NCBI GenBank assembly: GCA_024227975.1
Contig: JAAETV010000163.1
Location: 1-56,363, forward strand
Length of the DNA stretch: 56,363 nt
DNA from: Actinomycetes bacterium
GTDB lineage: Bacteria; Actinomycetota; Acidimicrobiia; Acidimicrobiales; SZUA-35
Direction: 5' to 3'
A program made the translations under genes and the position numbers. The notes below the pieces were generated by a model, which was not told the DNA's origin, did no database searches, and saw nothing but the letters and a program-made list of their open reading frames with translations. Positions 21,346 to 47,002 of the stretch are shown here, piece after piece. Position 1 is the stretch's first letter; each line of letters opens with the position of its first letter.

Positions 21346-23010
21346 ATGACTACAACCGACGAGAGAACTGAGGTGGTCGGTGCCGGGGTGATTCCAGCCG
21401 GTCTAGCCGGCGCTCTGGCTGCGGGGGCTGCCCTCAGTATCGGCGAGCTGGCAGCCGCCCTGGCCGCCCCCCGACCGGGGCCGGTGGTGGCGGTCGCCAA
21501 TCGGGTCCTCGACAATGCTCCAAGCTGGTTCGTCGACTTCGGGAAGGCCGTGTTCGGCTTGGCCGACAAGCCAGCCCTGGTGATGGGCACCGCCATCATC
21601 TCTGTGCTGGTTGCTATTGGCCTCGGAGTAGCCTCCCGACGCAATCTGATGCCCGGCATCGTCGGTATCTCCGTGTTCGGTCTGATCGGGTTGTTGGCCA
21701 TCGGTGTCGATAGCCAGGGGGGCTGGGCCGCTGCCGTTCCCGTCTCTCTTGCCGCCATCTTCGCCGGCGTAGGGGCTCTGATCATCCTGATGGGAAAGGC
21801 AAGGAGCCTGCGAGCGACCGGCCACAGGACCGTGGTCACGGTCGTGGCGGAGGGTGACGTCCCAGGCGAAGGCGACGGGGCCCGCCGCCCCACTTTTCCC
21901 ATTGATTCCCCCGTAGACCCTGCTGTCAGCCGCCGAAGCTTCCTCAATGCCGCCGGGGCTATCGGGGCGACGGCCGCCGTTGCGACAGTGGGGGCCAGTG
22001 TGTTGCGATCCCGCTCGTCGGTCAATGATGCCCGCGACGCGGTCCAACTCGATTCGGCTCTGACCGCAACCGAACTGGAAACTCGCATCTCCGATGCCGC
22101 CAGCTCTGATGTGGCGATCACCTCGGGGATCAGCCCCCTGATCGTCGACAACGACGACTTCTACCTCATCGACACGGCCATCCTCACCCCCCAGGTCGAT
22201 CCGGCCAAATGGGAGCTGACGATCAAGGGGATGGTCGACAACGAGGTCGTGTATACCTACGAGGAACTGCTCGACCGAGCCAACCTGGTTGAGCCGGTCA
22301 CGTTGTCGTGTGTGTCGAACGAGATCGGGGGGACCCTGGTCGGCAACGCCATATGGCAGGGGGTGGCCCTCACCGAGCTCCTCGATGAAGCAGGCGTTGA
22401 CCCGGCGGCCACCCAGATCGCCAGCCGATCGGTCGACGGCTGGTCCTGTGGCTTCCCGACCGAGGTGGCCTTTGACGGTCGCACCTCCATGGTCGCCATA
22501 GCCATGAACGACGAGCCGCTCCCCCTCCGCCACGGTTTTCCCGCCCGTCTCGTGGTCTCCGGCCTCTACGGCTACGTCTCGGCCACCAAGTGGCTCTCTG
22601 AGATCGAGCTGACCACGATGGAGGACTTCGACGGCTACTGGATTCCCCGAGGGTGGTCGAAGCTGGGCCCGGTCAAGACCCAGTCACGGATCGATACTCC
22701 GCGCCAGGGAACCTCGGTCAGGGCCGGCGCCGAGATCCCGATCGCCGGGGTGGCCTGGGCTCCCCATCGTGGCATCGAACGGGTTGAGATCCAGATCGAC
22801 GATGGCCCCTGGCTCGAAGCCGACCTCGGTGAGTCACTTGGCGAGAACGCTTGGTGCCAATGGCGCCGGGCCTGGACCACAACCCCGGGCCGGCATCTGA
22901 TCCGGGTGCGAGCCACCGACGGCACAGGCGAGACCCAGACCCCCGATCTGGCCTCACCAGCACCGAGTGGGGCGACAGGATGGCACGAGATCAGTGTGAC
23001 CGTCACCTGA
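21346..23010 (+). CDS. Membrane-anchored molybdopterin-dependent oxidoreductase (sulfite oxidase-like)
   Basis: This 554-residue protein has an N-terminal region of about four membrane helices (residues 15-160). A Tat-like SRRSFLNAAGAIG motif comes before another hydrophobic stretch near 205-225. The catalytic domain follows, with the molybdenum-ligating Cys in TLSCVSNEIGG near residue 324. A Mo-co dimerisation (immunoglobulin-like) domain lies from about 450 to the end. It is thus an extracytoplasmic Moco enzyme of the sulfite oxidase superfamily with an unusual membrane anchor. The substrate is unknown. It is divergent from the thioredoxin-like selenoprotein, and moaA, moaC and glp/moeA lie 22-26 kb away in this window. 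Confidence 0.9.
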   Translation: MTTTDERTEVVGAGVIPAGLAGALAAGAALSIGELAAALAAPRPGPVVAVANRVLDNAPSWFVDFGKAVFGLADKPALVMGTAIISVLVAIGLGVASRRNLMPGIVGISVFGLIGLLAIGVDSQGGWAAAVPVSLAAIFAGVGALIILMGKARSLRATGHRTVVTVVAEGDVPGEGDGARRPTFPIDSPVDPAVSRRSFLNAAGAIGATAAVATVGASVLRSRSSVNDARDAVQLDSALTATELETRISDAASSDVAITSGISPLIVDNDDFYLIDTAILTPQVDPAKWELTIKGMVDNEVVYTYEELLDRANLVEPVTLSCVSNEIGGTLVGNAIWQGVALTELLDEAGVDPAATQIASRSVDGWSCGFPTEVAFDGRTSMVAIAMNDEPLPLRHGFPARLVVSGLYGYVSATKWLSEIELTTMEDFDGYWIPRGWSKLGPVKTQSRIDTPRQGTSVRAGAEIPIAGVAWAPHRGIERVEIQIDDGPWLEADLGESLGENAWCQWRRAWTTTPGRHLIRVRATDGTGETQTPDLASPAPSGATGWHEISVTVT

Positions 23011-41254: not shown

Positions 41255-42715
41255 ATGCTGTCCGACCGGTCGTTGGGGTGGCTTCGCTACCTCGATCGCA
41301 AAGCTCACACGCCAGACAACTGGAATCGTGATGGGCGGCCGCACTCCCATTGGGACGACCGGTCGGATCCGCCAATGGCGAGCTGGCACAGATTTGACCT
41401 CGTCGACTCGTCCTATGCCATGGGCCTCATGGCCCGTCGGACACCGGCCTGGACCGAGCCCTATGTCGCGATACTCGACCAGCTCATCGAGCGTCACACT
41501 GGATGGTGGTCCGCCGCTGACTGGTTGACCCAGTTTGGTCACGATCCGGATCGAGCGAGTTATCCCGAGGCGTACCGTCCCTTCATCCCCGAGGATCTCT
41601 GGGGTGATTATGACGTACCCGGGTGGACCGCCAACGGCATCGAGCCTTGGGGCCGGCAACTGGATCCGGTCGCCGCCGATGGGATGCTCTTCTACAAGGG
41701 CTTCTTCCTCGTTCTGCTGGGGATCCGATCGATGATCGACCCGAATGACCGGTGGAACCAGTCGTTCCCGATGATCCGCGATGGGGACGAGGGCTTCTCC
41801 TGGTCACACACCGAGATCGCCGAGCATCTTTGCAAACAGTGGCTGGCCGCCCCCATCGGCTGCCATTGAGAGAACACCAAGATCTGGCCATTTTGACTGG
41901 CTGGAGCGGGCCTCGGTCTGAGGTTCCACGACAATCGACACGGCACCGATTTCAACGCCCAAGCGTTCGGCCCATGGTGGGCCCACGCCCGGGCGCAGTA
42001 TCTCGACCTGAACCGCGATGCCCCGCCCCAGATGACGACGCTCTACTACGACCCCCATCTCAACGTGCATCACCGACTTCCGGTTCAGTCGGCCCTCACT
42101 ACGTCGTACTACGCGGCGCCACAAGCACCCGAAGATGCCCGTCGACTCTTCGAGGCCGGGATCGCCTCCATGGGTTTGGACTCGGCGCCCAAGTTGCCGC
42201 TACGACCGGGGCGAGGCTACGGGGCATCGTTGATCCTGGCCCGCGAGTGGGAAATGGTCGAACTCGAAGCCCGTCTCGCTCACGCCATCGAAGAGTCATA
42301 CGAACCGACATGGGACAGAGCCACCGGTGAGTTCACCTGGGGCATGGGCCTCGACGAGCAGCACCCCCGGGGACAGTTCAACGCCTTCCTGGCGGCGGCA
42401 GAAGCGGCGGGGCCGGGCCGGTGGACCGATCTATCAACGGCGCCCCTTGCGCTTTGCCCCCAAATCGTCGACGTCGACTTCCCGACCGTGGCCCTCAAAC
42501 GAGCCGAGTGGGTCAACGGCTGCCTCCTGTTGAGCGTGGCGCCACTCAAAGAAGACCCGAGTGTCTTCACCACCTTCCGCTTGATCGATGTCGAGCCCCG
42601 GCAGTGGTACCTGACCGGTATCGATGGTGCGACCACCGATACCCGGCCCGACACGTTGGTCTTCCGGGTACCGCTCATAGCCGGCGATCTCGAACTGGTC
42701 CCCGGCGCCTACTGA
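41255..42715 (+). CDS. Linalool dehydratase/isomerase-like enzyme with two in-frame UGA (putative Sec205 and Sec214)
   Basis: The frame from ATG 41255 is open for 487 codons apart from UGA at 41867-41869 and 41894-41896. The upstream part has DLVDSSYAMG (Asp48 and Tyr54, spaced as LinD Asp39 and Tyr45) and the MLFYKGFFLVLLG segment. The motif H-[UGA]-E-N-T-K-I-W-P-F-[UGA]-L aligns with the LinD-family CEPN...F..CN signature. Its two cysteines, nine residues apart, are catalytic; here both codons are UGA. The match continues after it (GLGLRFHDNRHGTDF). The remaining 272 codons contain no other stop and keep normal codon use. A hairpin with loop GGUCU lies 18 nt after the second UGA. A pseudogene with two nonsense mutations exactly at both catalytic cysteines is very unlikely. 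Pyrrolysine is not involved because the codon is UGA. Confidence 0.85.
41884..41904 (+). promoter_or_regulatory. Hairpin after the first UGA of the LinD-like gene
   Basis: CTGGCCA (41884-41890) pairs with TGGCTGG (41898-41904) over seven pairs, two of them G-U, around the loop TTTTGAC. The loop starts at the 22nd base after the first UGA and contains the second UGA. It could act as the SECIS for the first UGA, but it has no G in the first loop positions, so support is weak. Confidence 0.35.
41908..41926 (+). promoter_or_regulatory. SECIS element for the second UGA
   Basis: GGGCCTC (41908-41914) pairs with GAGGTTC (41920-41926), five Watson-Crick and two G-U pairs, closing the loop GGTCT (41915-41919). 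Eighteen bases separate the UGA from the loop. From memory, the E. coli fdhF SECIS has the same GGUCU loop, the SelB contact site, at the same distance. It does not overlap the hairpin at 41884-41904. Confidence 0.75.
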
Positions 42716-42923: not shown

Positions 42924-42960
42924 TGGTCGAACGGTCGTTGGAACACAGCGGGTTGTGGAA

Positions 42961-43227
<267 letters not shown>

Positions 43228-43287: not shown

Positions 43288-44202
43288 CTACTGTTCGTTG
43301 ACGGCCTTGGCCCGGATCTCTCCGTCCTCCTCATCGAGTTGAGACTCGATGTAGATCGGCTTGGCCTTACGACGGAACCGTGTCGGCTCGTCCTTGGCCG
43401 CCCGACGGAAGATCGGCTCGACGTCGGCATCGATATCGCCGTCGCCACCTTCACCCTCTTGTTTGGGATTCTCAGCTTCCATGGCCTCGTTGGAGGCATC
43501 GACCTCAGCTGTGGTGTCGGCTTCTTCGGCTGAGGCGTTCTCGTCGGCGGTGGCAACGACCGTATCGACCGTTTCCTCCTCCACCGGTGGCGGCGAAGGA
43601 GTCGGCGTTTCGGCCAACTGGGATGCCAGCTCGGCCGCAACATCGAACGCAGCTGAACCCGATCCGCGAACCAGTTCGCTCTGCTCGTCGGACTCGCCGT
43701 CGGCTGAGGACGAAGGCGGTGTCTGGGCCCCAGCTCGCTCGGCCCGAATCGAGATACCACCGGACCGTTGGACCTTCTTCTTGGCCGCCTGGACGAAGAT
43801 CGCCCGTTCCACGCTCAGCATGCGGCCCCCGATGTAGGCGGCGACGAAGATGTGGACGAACAAGATCGTCATCATCAGAGCGAAGAGCAGGACGAAGCTA
43901 CCCCGCAGGGCAATAGCCAACAGGAAGGAAGCGAACGAGGCAAACATCGTTGCCAACATGAGTTGCCGGCGCCAGGCTGCCGCCGGTCGGCGAGCCCACT
44001 CGATGAAGGTGGCAACGACGGTCGAGTCACCAATCCCATGGCTGGCACGATCGGCCGACTCGTTGGTTGCCGACTCGGCCTGCCCATTGTCGAGTTGGCG
44101 ATAGTCGGAGCTGACAATCGATCCAGCAAGGGGCCTACCCAGAGCCCAGATCCACGCCAGAAGGAGTGCCCCAGCTACGACGATCTGGATCGTCGTAGCC
44201 AT
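43288..44202 (-). CDS. SepX/GlpR-like divisome membrane protein
   Basis: This 304-residue protein has a membrane segment at residues 5-24 and an Arg-rich stretch (EWARRPAAAWRRQ). A membrane hairpin follows at about 80-125, then a long acidic cytoplasmic tail. This architecture, and its place beside glp/moeA, fits the SepX/GlpR group. There, GlpR is known to bind the MoeA-like Glp and link it to FtsZ. Sequence identity is low, so the call rests on layout and context. Its ATG overlaps the moaC stop (TAATG), giving translational coupling. tRNA-Ala follows. Confidence 0.55.
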   Translation of the reverse strand: MATTIQIVVAGALLLAWIWALGRPLAGSIVSSDYRQLDNGQAESATNESADRASHGIGDSTVVATFIEWARRPAAAWRRQLMLATMFASFASFLLAIALRGSFVLLFALMMTILFVHIFVAAYIGGRMLSVERAIFVQAAKKKVQRSGGISIRAERAGAQTPPSSSADGESDEQSELVRGSGSAAFDVAAELASQLAETPTPSPPPVEEETVDTVVATADENASAEEADTTAEVDASNEAMEAENPKQEGEGGDGDIDADVEPIFRRAAKDEPTRFRRKAKPIYIESQLDEEDGEIRAKAVNEQ

Positions 44203-44714
44203 TACATGGATGACCGTTCGGTCCGGAAGGGGGTCTCGGCGCTACGGCGATAGGGGCCTGATTTGCCACCTGTCTTCTCCCATAGGGCTACCTCGCCGAT
44301 TTCCATACCCTTGTCCGCTGACTTGCACATGTCATAGATCGTCAGCGCTGCGATCGAACAGGCGGTGAGCGCCTCCATCTCCACCCCGGTTCGGTCGACC
44401 GTGTCGACCTGGGACTCGATCTCGATGTAGTCGTCCTTGATCCCGAAGTTGACCGAGACCGCCCCGATCATGACCGAATGACACAGGGGAAGCAGGTCTG
44501 AGGTCCGCTTGGCCGCTTGGATGGCCGCGACCCGAGCCACGGCCAGGACATCTCCCTTGGTCACGGCTCCACGAGCGACCAAGGAGGTCGTCTCAGGCTG
44601 CATGTAGACGCGACCACGAGCTACCGCACGTCGGAACGTGGGCTCCTTGGGGGTTACGTCAACCATTCGTGCTCGACCCAAAGGATCGAGATGTGATAAC
44701 TCTCGCTCGGCCAC
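44202..44714 (-). CDS. moaC: Cyclic pyranopterin monophosphate synthase
   Basis: This 170-residue protein performs the second step of molybdopterin synthesis, converting the MoaA product to cPMP. Conserved parts are visible: MVDVTPKEPTFRRAVARG near the start, DLLPLCHSVMIGAV in the centre, and VEMEALTACSIAALTIYDMCK with the catalytic Lys just after. The length is usual. It lies downstream of moaA and overlaps the following membrane-protein gene. The membrane Moco oxidoreductase in this window would need this pathway. Confidence 0.95.
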   Translation of the reverse strand: MAERELSHLDPLGRARMVDVTPKEPTFRRAVARGRVYMQPETTSLVARGAVTKGDVLAVARVAAIQAAKRTSDLLPLCHSVMIGAVSVNFGIKDDYIEIESQVDTVDRTGVEMEALTACSIAALTIYDMCKSADKGMEIGEVALWEKTGGKSGPYRRSAETPFRTERSSM

Positions 44715-44758
44715 TCCACCAACTTAGTGGGAAACAAGCGAGAAAAGGGGGCGATTCG

Positions 44759-45742
44759 TCAACCGCCCAATTGGCTCATCGACTTCGAGGGCCGCAAGAA
44801 GTGAACCTGGCCGATTGCGTGACCTGCCCATTTGCGACTGACCTCTCCCACAACGGCGGCAATGATGTCGTCGTCGCCACCTCCACCGCGCAGGACTCGA
44901 CGTAAATCAACGTGATCAAGGGCAAATAGGCAGTTGCGCAGCTGGCCTTCAGCCGTGAGCCGGATACGGTCACAGCTCCCACAGAACGGCTCGGTCACGC
45001 TGGCGATCACCCCGAACTCACCGGCCCCATCACTGTAGATGAACCGCTCAGCTGGGCTGCTCCCCCGCTCGACTGGCTCGAAGTCGAAGTACTCAGCCGC
45101 CACAGCCAGAATCTCGTGGTACGACACCACCAGGTCGGCCGACCACTTTCCCTGAGCATCGAGAGGCATGAACTCGATGAAGCGGACGATCACTCCCTTC
45201 TCCCGACCCAGGTGGAGGAAGTCGACCAACTCGTCGTCATTGATGCCCCGCATCAGGACGACGTTCACCTTCACTGGATCGAAGCCAACAGAAACGGCGG
45301 CGTCGAGCCCGTCGAGCACGGCTGGCAGCGAGTTGCGTCGGGTCAGCTCCAGGAAGCGGTCGGCTCGTAGGGTGTCAAGGCTGATGTTCAGTCGTTGCAG
45401 GCCGGCCAGTTTCAGATCATGGGCCTGTTCGGGCAGGGTCGCTGCGTTCGTTGTCATCGACAGGTCGACCTCGAGGGCGGCCAGCTTCTCGACCAGTAGG
45501 GGCAGGCGGGCCCGCACCGTGGGTTCTCCGCCGGTCAGCCGGATCGACGAGACCCCGCACTGCTCGACCAGTACCCGCGCCACCCGTTCGATCTCTTCGA
45601 ACGACAGCACCTCAGATCGTTCGAGCCACTCCATGCCCTCGACAGGCATGCAGTACTGGCAGCGGAAGTTACATCGGTCGGTCACAGAGATACGAAGATC
45701 GGTGTGACGACGCCCGAGGTCGTCGACGAGATCGTTGGCCAC
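44759..45742 (-). CDS. moaA: GTP 3',8-cyclase (radical SAM)
   Basis: This 327-residue enzyme starts molybdopterin synthesis from GTP. The radical SAM cluster motif is CNFRCQYC near residues 23-30, followed by RLTGGEPTVR for SAM binding. The second iron-sulfur cluster Cys lie in CGSCDR, then NCLFA, in the C-terminal half. The C-terminus ends in the double Gly needed for activity. It lies between glp/moeA and moaC on the same strand. Confidence 0.95.
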   Translation of the reverse strand: MANDLVDDLGRRHTDLRISVTDRCNFRCQYCMPVEGMEWLERSEVLSFEEIERVARVLVEQCGVSSIRLTGGEPTVRARLPLLVEKLAALEVDLSMTTNAATLPEQAHDLKLAGLQRLNISLDTLRADRFLELTRRNSLPAVLDGLDAAVSVGFDPVKVNVVLMRGINDDELVDFLHLGREKGVIVRFIEFMPLDAQGKWSADLVVSYHEILAVAAEYFDFEPVERGSSPAERFIYSDGAGEFGVIASVTEPFCGSCDRIRLTAEGQLRNCLFALDHVDLRRVLRGGGGDDDIIAAVVGEVSRKWAGHAIGQVHFLRPSKSMSQLGG

Positions 45743-45793
45743 TACCGCTCAGACTACTGCCGCCGATGGTGGCCAGACCAGCCCTTGGCCTCC

Positions 45794-47002
45794 TCAGCCG
45801 AGATAGATCACGGTGACAGTCCCACCCGCTTCGATCCCAGACCCGTCAGGCACGATGGCCAACCCGTTGGCTCCGGCCATGGCTCTGAGCTGATGTGACC
45901 CCTGCCCACCAGCCGAACGGGCGTGCCAAGCCCCGTCACCCTGCTGGGTCACCACGACCCGGATGAAGTGGGTCTTACCATCACGATGACGATGAAGTCG
46001 CTCGTCGACAATGGTCCGCAGATGGGGTCGTTCGGCGTCCTGACGACCCATCATGGTGCGGATGGCGGGCCGGGCGAACAACTCGAAGCTGACCATGGAG
46101 CTCACTGGGTTGCCGGGGAGCCCGAAGACCGGCGTACCCGACAGCAGGCCGAAAGCGAGGGGCTTGGCCGGCTTGATGGCCACCTGCATCCAGTTGAAAT
46201 CACCGAGCTCATTGAGGATGGCCTTCACCAGGTCGTAGTCGCCCATACTGACTCCGCCGGAGGTGATGATGGCATCAACAGTGTCAACCCCAGAATGCAG
46301 GGCGGAGCGGATGGCATCCTCGTCGTCGGCGATCAGACCGAGATCGACAGGCTCGAACCCAGCTTCGGCGGCCAGCGACAATAGTGTCAGCCGGTTGGAA
46401 TCACGGATCTGGCCCGGCTGGAGGGGGGCCGAGCCCTCGACCAGTTCGTCACCGGTTGACATGACCCCGACCCGGGGTCGGCGATGGACCTTGACGAATT
46501 GGCGCCCGATGCTGGCCAGGACACCGAGATGACCAGGGGTCAGCAGGGTGCCTGGGCTGAACACCTCGGCCCCGGATGTGATGTCGTCGCCGGCGGCACG
46601 GATGTGGTTACCGACCGGGACTTCGGCCAAGATCTCGACCTCGTCACCAATGGCCCGGGTCAGCTCGACCATGATGACAGCGTCAGCCCCTTCGGGCATG
46701 GGGGCACCGGTCATTATTCGCATCGCTTCGCCTGCCGACAGGGATCGCGGGGCGACCTGACCAGCAGCGATGGTTGCCCCGATGGGCAAAATGACAGAGG
46801 AGCTCTCAGAGGCCCCGCTGGTGTCAGCAGCTCTGACGGCAAAGCCGTCCATGGCGGTGTTTGCGAACGGCGGGATGTCATCGGCCGCCATCACTGTCTC
46901 GGTCAGTACCAGGTCTCGCGCCTGGCCAATTGGGACCTCGATCGACGGGAGGACGACGATGTCACGATTGATCCTGGCTCGCGCTTCTTCCAGCGGGATC
47001 AT
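45794..47002 (-). CDS. moeA: Molybdopterin molybdotransferase / Glp divisome protein (MoeA family)
   Basis: This 402-residue protein has the MoeA domain order: an N-terminal dimer domain, the NTAMDGFAVRAAD motif near residue 47, and the MTGAPMPEGADAVIMVE motif near 95. The MPT-binding domain follows with TSGGVSMGDYD near 240 and LPGNPVSSMVSFELF near 305. It inserts molybdate into adenylylated MPT. In actinobacteria the homologue Glp also binds FtsZ, and a GlpR-like membrane gene lies at the end of this cluster. Both jobs are possible. Confidence 0.92.
   Translation of the reverse strand: MIPLEEARARINRDIVVLPSIEVPIGQARDLVLTETVMAADDIPPFANTAMDGFAVRAADTSGASESSSVILPIGATIAAGQVAPRSLSAGEAMRIMTGAPMPEGADAVIMVELTRAIGDEVEILAEVPVGNHIRAAGDDITSGAEVFSPGTLLTPGHLGVLASIGRQFVKVHRRPRVGVMSTGDELVEGSAPLQPGQIRDSNRLTLLSLAAEAGFEPVDLGLIADDEDAIRSALHSGVDTVDAIITSGGVSMGDYDLVKAILNELGDFNWMQVAIKPAKPLAFGLLSGTPVFGLPGNPVSSMVSFELFARPAIRTMMGRQDAERPHLRTIVDERLHRHRDGKTHFIRVVVTQQGDGAWHARSAGGQGSHQLRAMAGANGLAIVPDGSGIEAGGTVTVIYLG

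Follow-up and report, generated by a model that had tools for sequence, protein, structure and literature searches.

The gene at positions 41255 to 42715 of the window, which is the whole 56,363-nucleotide stretch of DNA that was analysed, raises the question of how a reading frame interrupted by UGA at two codons, both of them at positions occupied by the catalytic cysteines of linalool dehydratase/isomerase (LinD), should be decoded. According to PMC6600392, both LinD cysteines are essential and work as reduced thiols on an alkenol, and the mechanism of the enzyme is disputed between a covalent thioterpene and a carbocation. The explanation which we consider probable is that the gene encodes a LinD-fold protein in which both UGAs at the catalytic positions are read as selenocysteine (Sec), giving a predicted Sec205/Sec214 active site, a judgement that takes in the decoding, chemistry and history proposed below.

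Reading frame and product

When the gene is read with TGA translated as U, it comprises 487 codons, with TGA at codon 205, codon 214 and the terminal codon 487 and with no TAA or TAG, which agrees with the original observation of a single frame whose only internal interruptions are the two UGA codons. The terminal UGA is an ordinary stop here. No hydrophobic leader was seen by eye in MLSDRSLGWLRYLDRKA of the window protein. The features of the gene are collected in Table 1.

Table 1. Coordinates of the gene, its two internal UGA codons and associated elements in the window.
Feature	Position	Strand	Description and basis
LinD-fold protein gene	41255..42715	+	486 residues and terminal UGA; two internal UGA codons; frame, Pfam match, purifying selection on both sides
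Cys203	41861..41863	+	Two residues ahead of UGA 1; codon and residue comparison
UGA 1 (residue 205)	41867..41869	+	At LinD Cys171 position; predicted Sec; frame, codon comparison, profile alignment
Hairpin 1	41883..41905	+	Candidate SECIS element of UGA 1; stem 41883-41889 with 41899-41905; UGA 2 within the loop
UGA 2 (residue 214)	41894..41896	+	At LinD Cys180 position; predicted Sec; frame, codon comparison, profile alignment
Hairpin 2	41909..41925	+	Likely SECIS element of UGA 2; stem 41909-41914 with 41920-41925; loop GGUCU 41915-41919; 18 nt after UGA 2
All-beta C-terminal part	42461..42703	+	Residues about 403-483, beyond the LinD-matching part; predicted strands, structure-model range 1-403

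Elsewhere in the window, a 99-nt unit occurs twice in tandem (98% identical) at 42955-43227, beside a tRNA-Ala (cgc) gene at 43153-43227, and the first 25 nt of this unit recur within the tRNA gene as a duplicated tRNA end. Genes for MoaC, a MoaA-like radical SAM protein and MoeA (molybdenum cofactor synthesis) stand in a row at 44202-47002, and a molybdopterin oxidoreductase is encoded at 21346-23010.

Membership of the LinD-fold family

The Pfam family Ldi (PF18566) matches the window protein, with the UGAs read as Cys, at 40 bits, above the cut-off of 26.1. The predicted structure has the (alpha/alpha)6 barrel fold of LinD, and when the model (range 1-403) is compared with known structures LinD stands far ahead of all others, at an identity of about 17-18%. 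A phmmer search of the PDB with the single window protein returned matches at chance level only, so that a profile was needed to reach LinD; NCBIfam gave no match for any of the three proteins tried. The profile alignment places residues 205 and 214 on LinD Cys171 and Cys180, nine residues apart. Pfam match, predicted fold and profile alignment therefore agree with the family assignment made at the outset, and the window protein is predicted to be a member of the LinD-fold family (Ldi PF18566).

The active-site motif originally given stands only in part. LinD does have two catalytic cysteines spaced nine apart, but the accompanying pattern CEPN...F..CN does not hold, as LinD reads CEPDNYFVQCN and the window family UENTKIWPFUL, and besides the two C/U positions the Glu alone is common to both. 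Two further LinD residues differ: LinD Met125 corresponds to Phe146, and LinD His129, an active-site residue, corresponds to Phe150, which is found in all 43 of the UGA/UGA, Cys/UGA and Cys/Cys genes described below (named by their codons at positions 205 and 214). Because Phe150 stands in the place of His129, the window protein is not classed as a linalool dehydratase, and its chemistry may therefore differ.

Codons at the two positions among relatives

A search of 5.8 billion proteins, in which 7,992 candidates were scored, gave 306 matches, of which the best 120 were used; the top two among these are 61% and 63% identical to the window protein. The expectation that the UGA columns would be Cys in homologues was borne out, since in the 121-row alignment (the query, with UGA as Cys, and the best 120 of the 306) Cys occupies column 205 in 116 rows and column 214 likewise in 116. 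The rows with other residues at columns 205 and 214 are P0002 (C, Q), P0003 (R, C), P0042 (G, R), and P0025 and P0067 (both S, H). The remaining exception, P0117, is a fragment which starts just past residue 214 and matches the C-terminal end of a nearly identical copy of the L003 gene; it exemplifies how UGA-bearing genes of this family stand cut at the UGA in protein databases.

The codons themselves were compared in genomes. A scan of one genome per species over 84,980 species, with the query and six relatives aligned, yielded 30 loci: 23 UGA/UGA, three Cys/UGA (L003, L005, L027), two Ser/His (L024, L025) and two too short to class (L029, L030). In addition, 397 genomes of the order of G010, a sample drawn from a larger group, were read through stops, and 39 of them match. 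After removal of 14 duplicates there were 47 unique genes, the window gene included, of which 25 are UGA/UGA, 15 Cys/UGA, three Cys/Cys, two Ser/His and two too short; the two TGA codons thus recur at homologous positions in 24 genes besides that of the window. Two further Cys/UGA genes, L086 and L087, come from the same order. In the phylum of G026 (record titled Chloroflexi) two of 251 genomes match, one with the Cys/UGA gene already known and one with two Cys/Cys genes, and in the phylum of G029 (record titled Myxococcota) six of 235 match, with Cys/UGA genes L077 and L078, Cys/Cys genes L079, L080 and the distant L082, and one gene too short to class. UGA-bearing genes of the family occur in Acidimicrobiia as well as in MAGs whose titles name Myxococcota or Chloroflexi.

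Several individual loci deserve mention. Genome G005 carries both a Cys/UGA paralogue (L005) and a UGA/UGA paralogue (L026), the latter starting at a contig edge. The fragment L088 (G130) is the one most like the window gene, at 87% over residues 2-195, and meets a contig edge just before UGA 1. The Cys/Sec pair has been lost in L024, L025, P0002, P0003 and P0042 (Ser/His, Cys/Gln, Arg/Cys, Gly/Arg). Among the 39 matches from the order, seven are fragmentary or eroded, and in L083 (G355) and L084 (G198) the active-site segment is gone. These relatives without the pair or the segment, whose frames are full or partial, are possibly pseudo-enzymes; the genomes of such relatives keep selA where this was tested.

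The frame is under purifying selection on both sides of the UGA codons. For pairs of the 25 UGA/UGA genes the median NG86 dN/dS is 0.084 ahead of residue 205 (usable dS in 255 of 300 pairs) and 0.24 past residue 214 (272 of 300), values which are rough because the median dS, about 1.3, is near saturation. No further in-frame stop occurs in the 47 genes at window-aligned positions 1-477, a count that leaves insertions relative to the window aside and includes two fragments. Between the UGAs, the residues ENTKIWPF vary only at 210 (I/V), with third-base variation at seven of the eight codons. These observations bear on the possibility that the UGAs are true stops, belonging to a decayed gene, to a sequencing error or to separate short proteins. 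It could draw on the use of UGA as an ordinary stop here, the gene's own end included, and on the few relatives from which the Cys/Sec pair or the entire active-site segment is missing, but the same two codons recur in 25 genes and are never TAA or TAG, dN/dS is low on both sides, the eight-residue middle piece is conserved, and both the hairpin conservation and the co-occurrence with selA described below stand against it. True stops are consequently extremely improbable, and decay and sequencing error are rejected on the grounds of recurrence, selection and hairpin conservation; the argument originally advanced, that two nonsense mutations at exactly the two catalytic codons would be very unlikely, is strengthened by the recurrence and by the selection on either side.

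Hairpins downstream of the UGA codons

The folding energy of the window region alone carries no signal (z 0.63 for 101 nt, and likewise for shorter pieces), and conservation was therefore used to evaluate hairpins; an Rfam scan of the window matched tRNA only. As given in PMC13188914, the bSECIS model specifies a loop of 3-9 nt, a stem of 4-16 bp, a G in the first two loop bases, a distance of 16-37 nt and an energy no higher than -7.5. Hairpin 2, whose core is CCUC-GGUCU-GAGG with the loop starting eighteen nucleotides 3' of UGA 2, agrees with the model in its 6-7 bp stem, its GGUCU loop, its 18-nt spacing and its energy in the window of -9.2 kcal/mol, an energy that is not below that of shuffles (z -0.50).

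The 6-bp stem of hairpin 2 is paired in 204 of 204 cells across the 34 distinct rows that represent 40 UGA-bearing genes, with pair 45-57 changing from C-G to U-A in ten rows and pair 46-56 changed on both sides in one, a Chloroflexi gene in which both residues differ too. The paired fraction was reached by none of 500 shuffles and the number of two-sided pairs by 16, while the number of pair types was equalled by 496, so that this covariation measure is not above the shuffles; slid versions of the hairpin are paired at no more than 54.9%. Synonymous draws from each gene's own codon usage produced the stem and loop in 0.05 to 1.5% of cases over the 40 genes. With four later genes added, the full six-pair stem and GGUCU are present in all 44 UGA-bearing genes, whereas eight Cys/Cys genes form two to four of the six pairs, none with the full stem, and two of them have GGUCU. 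Hairpin 2 is likely the SECIS element of UGA 2, to which SelB would deliver Sec-tRNA via the conserved GGUCU hairpin.

The case of UGA 1 is different, in that hairpin 2 sits 45 nt from it, beyond the 16-37 nt of the published model (PMC13188914). Hairpin 1 starts 13 nt after UGA 1 and forms all seven pairs in 24 of the 25 UGA/UGA genes; its cells are paired at 99.3% in this class and at 69.2% in the 15 Cys/UGA genes. Synonymous draws match the observed pairing in 4-29% of cases per UGA/UGA gene, and because synonymous randomisation so often yields it, hairpin 1 is kept as a candidate. Its first loop base is G in 17 of the 25 UGA/UGA genes and A in the window, where G is absent from the second loop base as well; the spacing and the energy (-9.7 kcal/mol) in the window fit the PMC13188914 model, but the loop departs from the G-in-loop rule. 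Hairpin 1 could thus be an insertion signal for UGA 1, as its pairing faintly suggests, and UGA 1 would be served either by this second hairpin, with UGA 2 in its loop, or by the same downstream element as UGA 2.

It is also conceivable, if improbable, that UGA 2 is Sec and UGA 1 is decoded otherwise, through near-cognate readthrough or partly as a stop, with a main product that is not Sec/Sec. A conserved signal that is clear for UGA 2 only, the weakness of hairpin 1 with its departure from the G-in-loop rule in the window, and the existence of Cys/UGA forms with UGA 2 alone are all compatible with such decoding, but UGA, and no other codon, is fixed at the Cys171 position throughout the UGA/UGA class (25 of 25 genes), and the near-universal pairing of hairpin 1 in that class also speaks for insertion of Sec at both codons.

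Selenocysteine machinery in relatives' genomes

The sel genes were searched with curated cut-offs in the 29 relatives' genomes of the first loci and in 14 control genomes. Above cut-off were selA in 28 of the 29, tRNA-Sec in 27, selB in 29 and selD in 28; since the misses are confined to G028 (selA, tRNA-Sec), G019 (selD) and G008 (tRNA-Sec), 26 genomes pass all four. Among the relatives' genomes with a UGA-bearing gene, 23 of 25 have all four, and G001, whose gene is nearest to that of the window (81%), is one that passes. Controls exceeded the cut-off for selA in one of 14 cases, and for selB and selD in two each; the tRNA-Sec cut-off is weak, as five of the 14 controls pass, and 26 of the 27 positive genomes reach 64 bits or more, the score of G029 being 50.7. 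ARAGORN reported tRNA-SeC (tca) at all three loci tried.

In the order sample, selA is matched in 247 of 397 genomes, 233 of them above cut-off. Of the 39 matching genomes, 27 have a UGA form (12 with UGA/UGA, one of which also has a Cys/UGA gene, and 15 with Cys/UGA), and selA is present in all 27, the weakest at E 1.1e-93; it is matched in none of the three Cys/Cys genomes (G213, G302, G396) and in all of the other nine (two Ser/His, seven with fragments or eroded copies). The exact p for co-occurrence of selA with the UGA form, 2.5e-4, is only indicative because the genomes are related and incomplete. The original claim that both UGAs encode Sec is therefore supported jointly by LinD homology, by the Cys of LinD in both columns, by the lack of decay, by the conserved hairpin after UGA 2 and by the Sec machinery in relatives' genomes.

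The selD gene itself has one in-frame TGA in 26 of the 29 genomes, and selD is therefore probably a selenoprotein in these genomes too. In the three selD genes compared (L041, L042 and L043), the hairpins after that UGA carry loops other than GGUCU.

History of the two positions

A quick IQ-TREE analysis with SH-aLRT support only was run on 76 rows, with columns 205 and 214 excluded; L026, L029, L030 and L080 were left out beforehand, L081, L082, L086 and L087 were not included, and 27 of the best 120 proteins were used. The tree contains a 13-row Cys/UGA clade (support 100), an 18-row Cys/Cys clade (84) and a 33-row clade (99) which comprises all 24 UGA/UGA rows used, three Cys/UGA rows and six others and adjoins the Chloroflexi Cys/UGA gene. 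The exceptional proteins P0002, P0003, P0025, P0042 and P0117 lie within or beside the UGA/UGA clade (P0067 was left out of the tree).

From this layout it follows that UGA at 214 arose either once, with a loss, or twice, and UGA at 205 is seen only alongside UGA at 214. On the simplest reading, position 214 would have become Sec first and position 205 later, in one Acidimicrobiia clade. By the same reading, 205 would have reverted to Cys in L003, L005 and L054, and both would have been lost in the Ser/His and P0002 lineage, with several inner forks open.

Proposed chemistry

If both codons are read as Sec, the Sec205/Sec214 pair would line the barrel active site as in LinD and would act on a substrate of the alkene or alcohol type, with one selenolate serving as a base or a nucleophile while the other residue, as a selenol, donates a proton. 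We tentatively suggest that Sec here takes the place of the two catalytic thiols in a (de)hydratase/isomerase fold that uses no cofactor, that selenium takes part in proton transfer or in a C-Se adduct rather than in redox or metal chemistry, and that two insertion signals are nested, hairpin 1 presenting UGA 2 in its loop.

A different use of the same two Sec residues, which we think rather unlikely, is as a pair for redox reactions or for metal(loid) binding, in the form of a diselenide or of a selenenylsulfide with Cys203, that takes no part in hydrating, dehydrating or isomerising a substrate. The majority of known selenoproteins have functions related to redox or metals (PMC13188914), Phe150 replaces LinD His129, and Cys203 is kept in 25 of 25 UGA/UGA genes; yet Cys203 is Val in seven of the 15 Cys/UGA genes, and the fold matches LinD far above all others, an enzyme whose cysteines (PMC6600392) are the reduced thiols described above. 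No conserved redox partner lies next door either: in 31 gene neighbourhoods, defined by mechanical ORFs and with flanks of unequal length, no protein cluster is common to more than three regions.

A Sec/Sec active site on the LinD fold would matter because explanations of selenocysteine mostly invoke redox or metal chemistry. The Cys/Cys, Cys/UGA and UGA/UGA forms would constitute a natural experiment on selenium in proton-transfer or covalent catalysis, and the series bears on the disputed LinD mechanism as set out in PMC6600392.

Comparison with known systems

The available part of PMC13188914 catalogues 119 selenoprotein families, some with two or three Sec; Ldi/PF18566 is absent from these, and that part of the text has no match for linalool or dehydratase, nor does the text of the deep-Sep paper (PMC12013277). 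The literature searched contains no earlier report of a selenocysteine LinD-type protein, in keeping with the initial statement that no double-Sec member had been described, although an earlier description is possible. On the predicted decoding, the family would be new among selenoproteins, and the gene a Sec/Sec variant, likewise new, of a fold already known. Two-Sec bacterial selenoproteins (Prx-like UxxU, MbdU, the UxxxxU rhodanese/DsbD fusion TsoB and others) listed in Table 1 of PMC13188914 share with it the two Sec and the bacterial insertion machinery, but they are of thiol-redox, metal-binding or methyltransferase type, with no LinD-fold member among them.

Among the nearest known systems is LinD (Ldi) of Castellaniella defragrans (PDB 5G1U, 5HLR, 5I3T, 7AD2), whose Cys171 and Cys180 are both UGA in the window gene. 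The C-terminal beta part is extra in the window protein relative to LinD, and LinD is periplasmic according to PMC6600392, in contrast to the leaderless appearance of the window protein. Closer in sequence are Cys/Cys homologues from Actinomycetota and other MAGs (for example P0006, P0031, L058, L061, L063), which are 50-56% identical over nearly the whole length and share the motif CHCENTK(I/V)WP(F/Y)C, with ordinary Cys codons and no full SECIS stem.

For the insertion signal, a close parallel is the SECIS element of E. coli fdhF, which has a GGUCU apical loop 18 nt after the UGA; hairpin 2 has the same loop and the same spacing. Compared with the fdhF sequence, hairpin 2 has no bulged U at the matching place, and the window gene has two UGA codons 27 nt apart, which raises the question of how SelB serves both.
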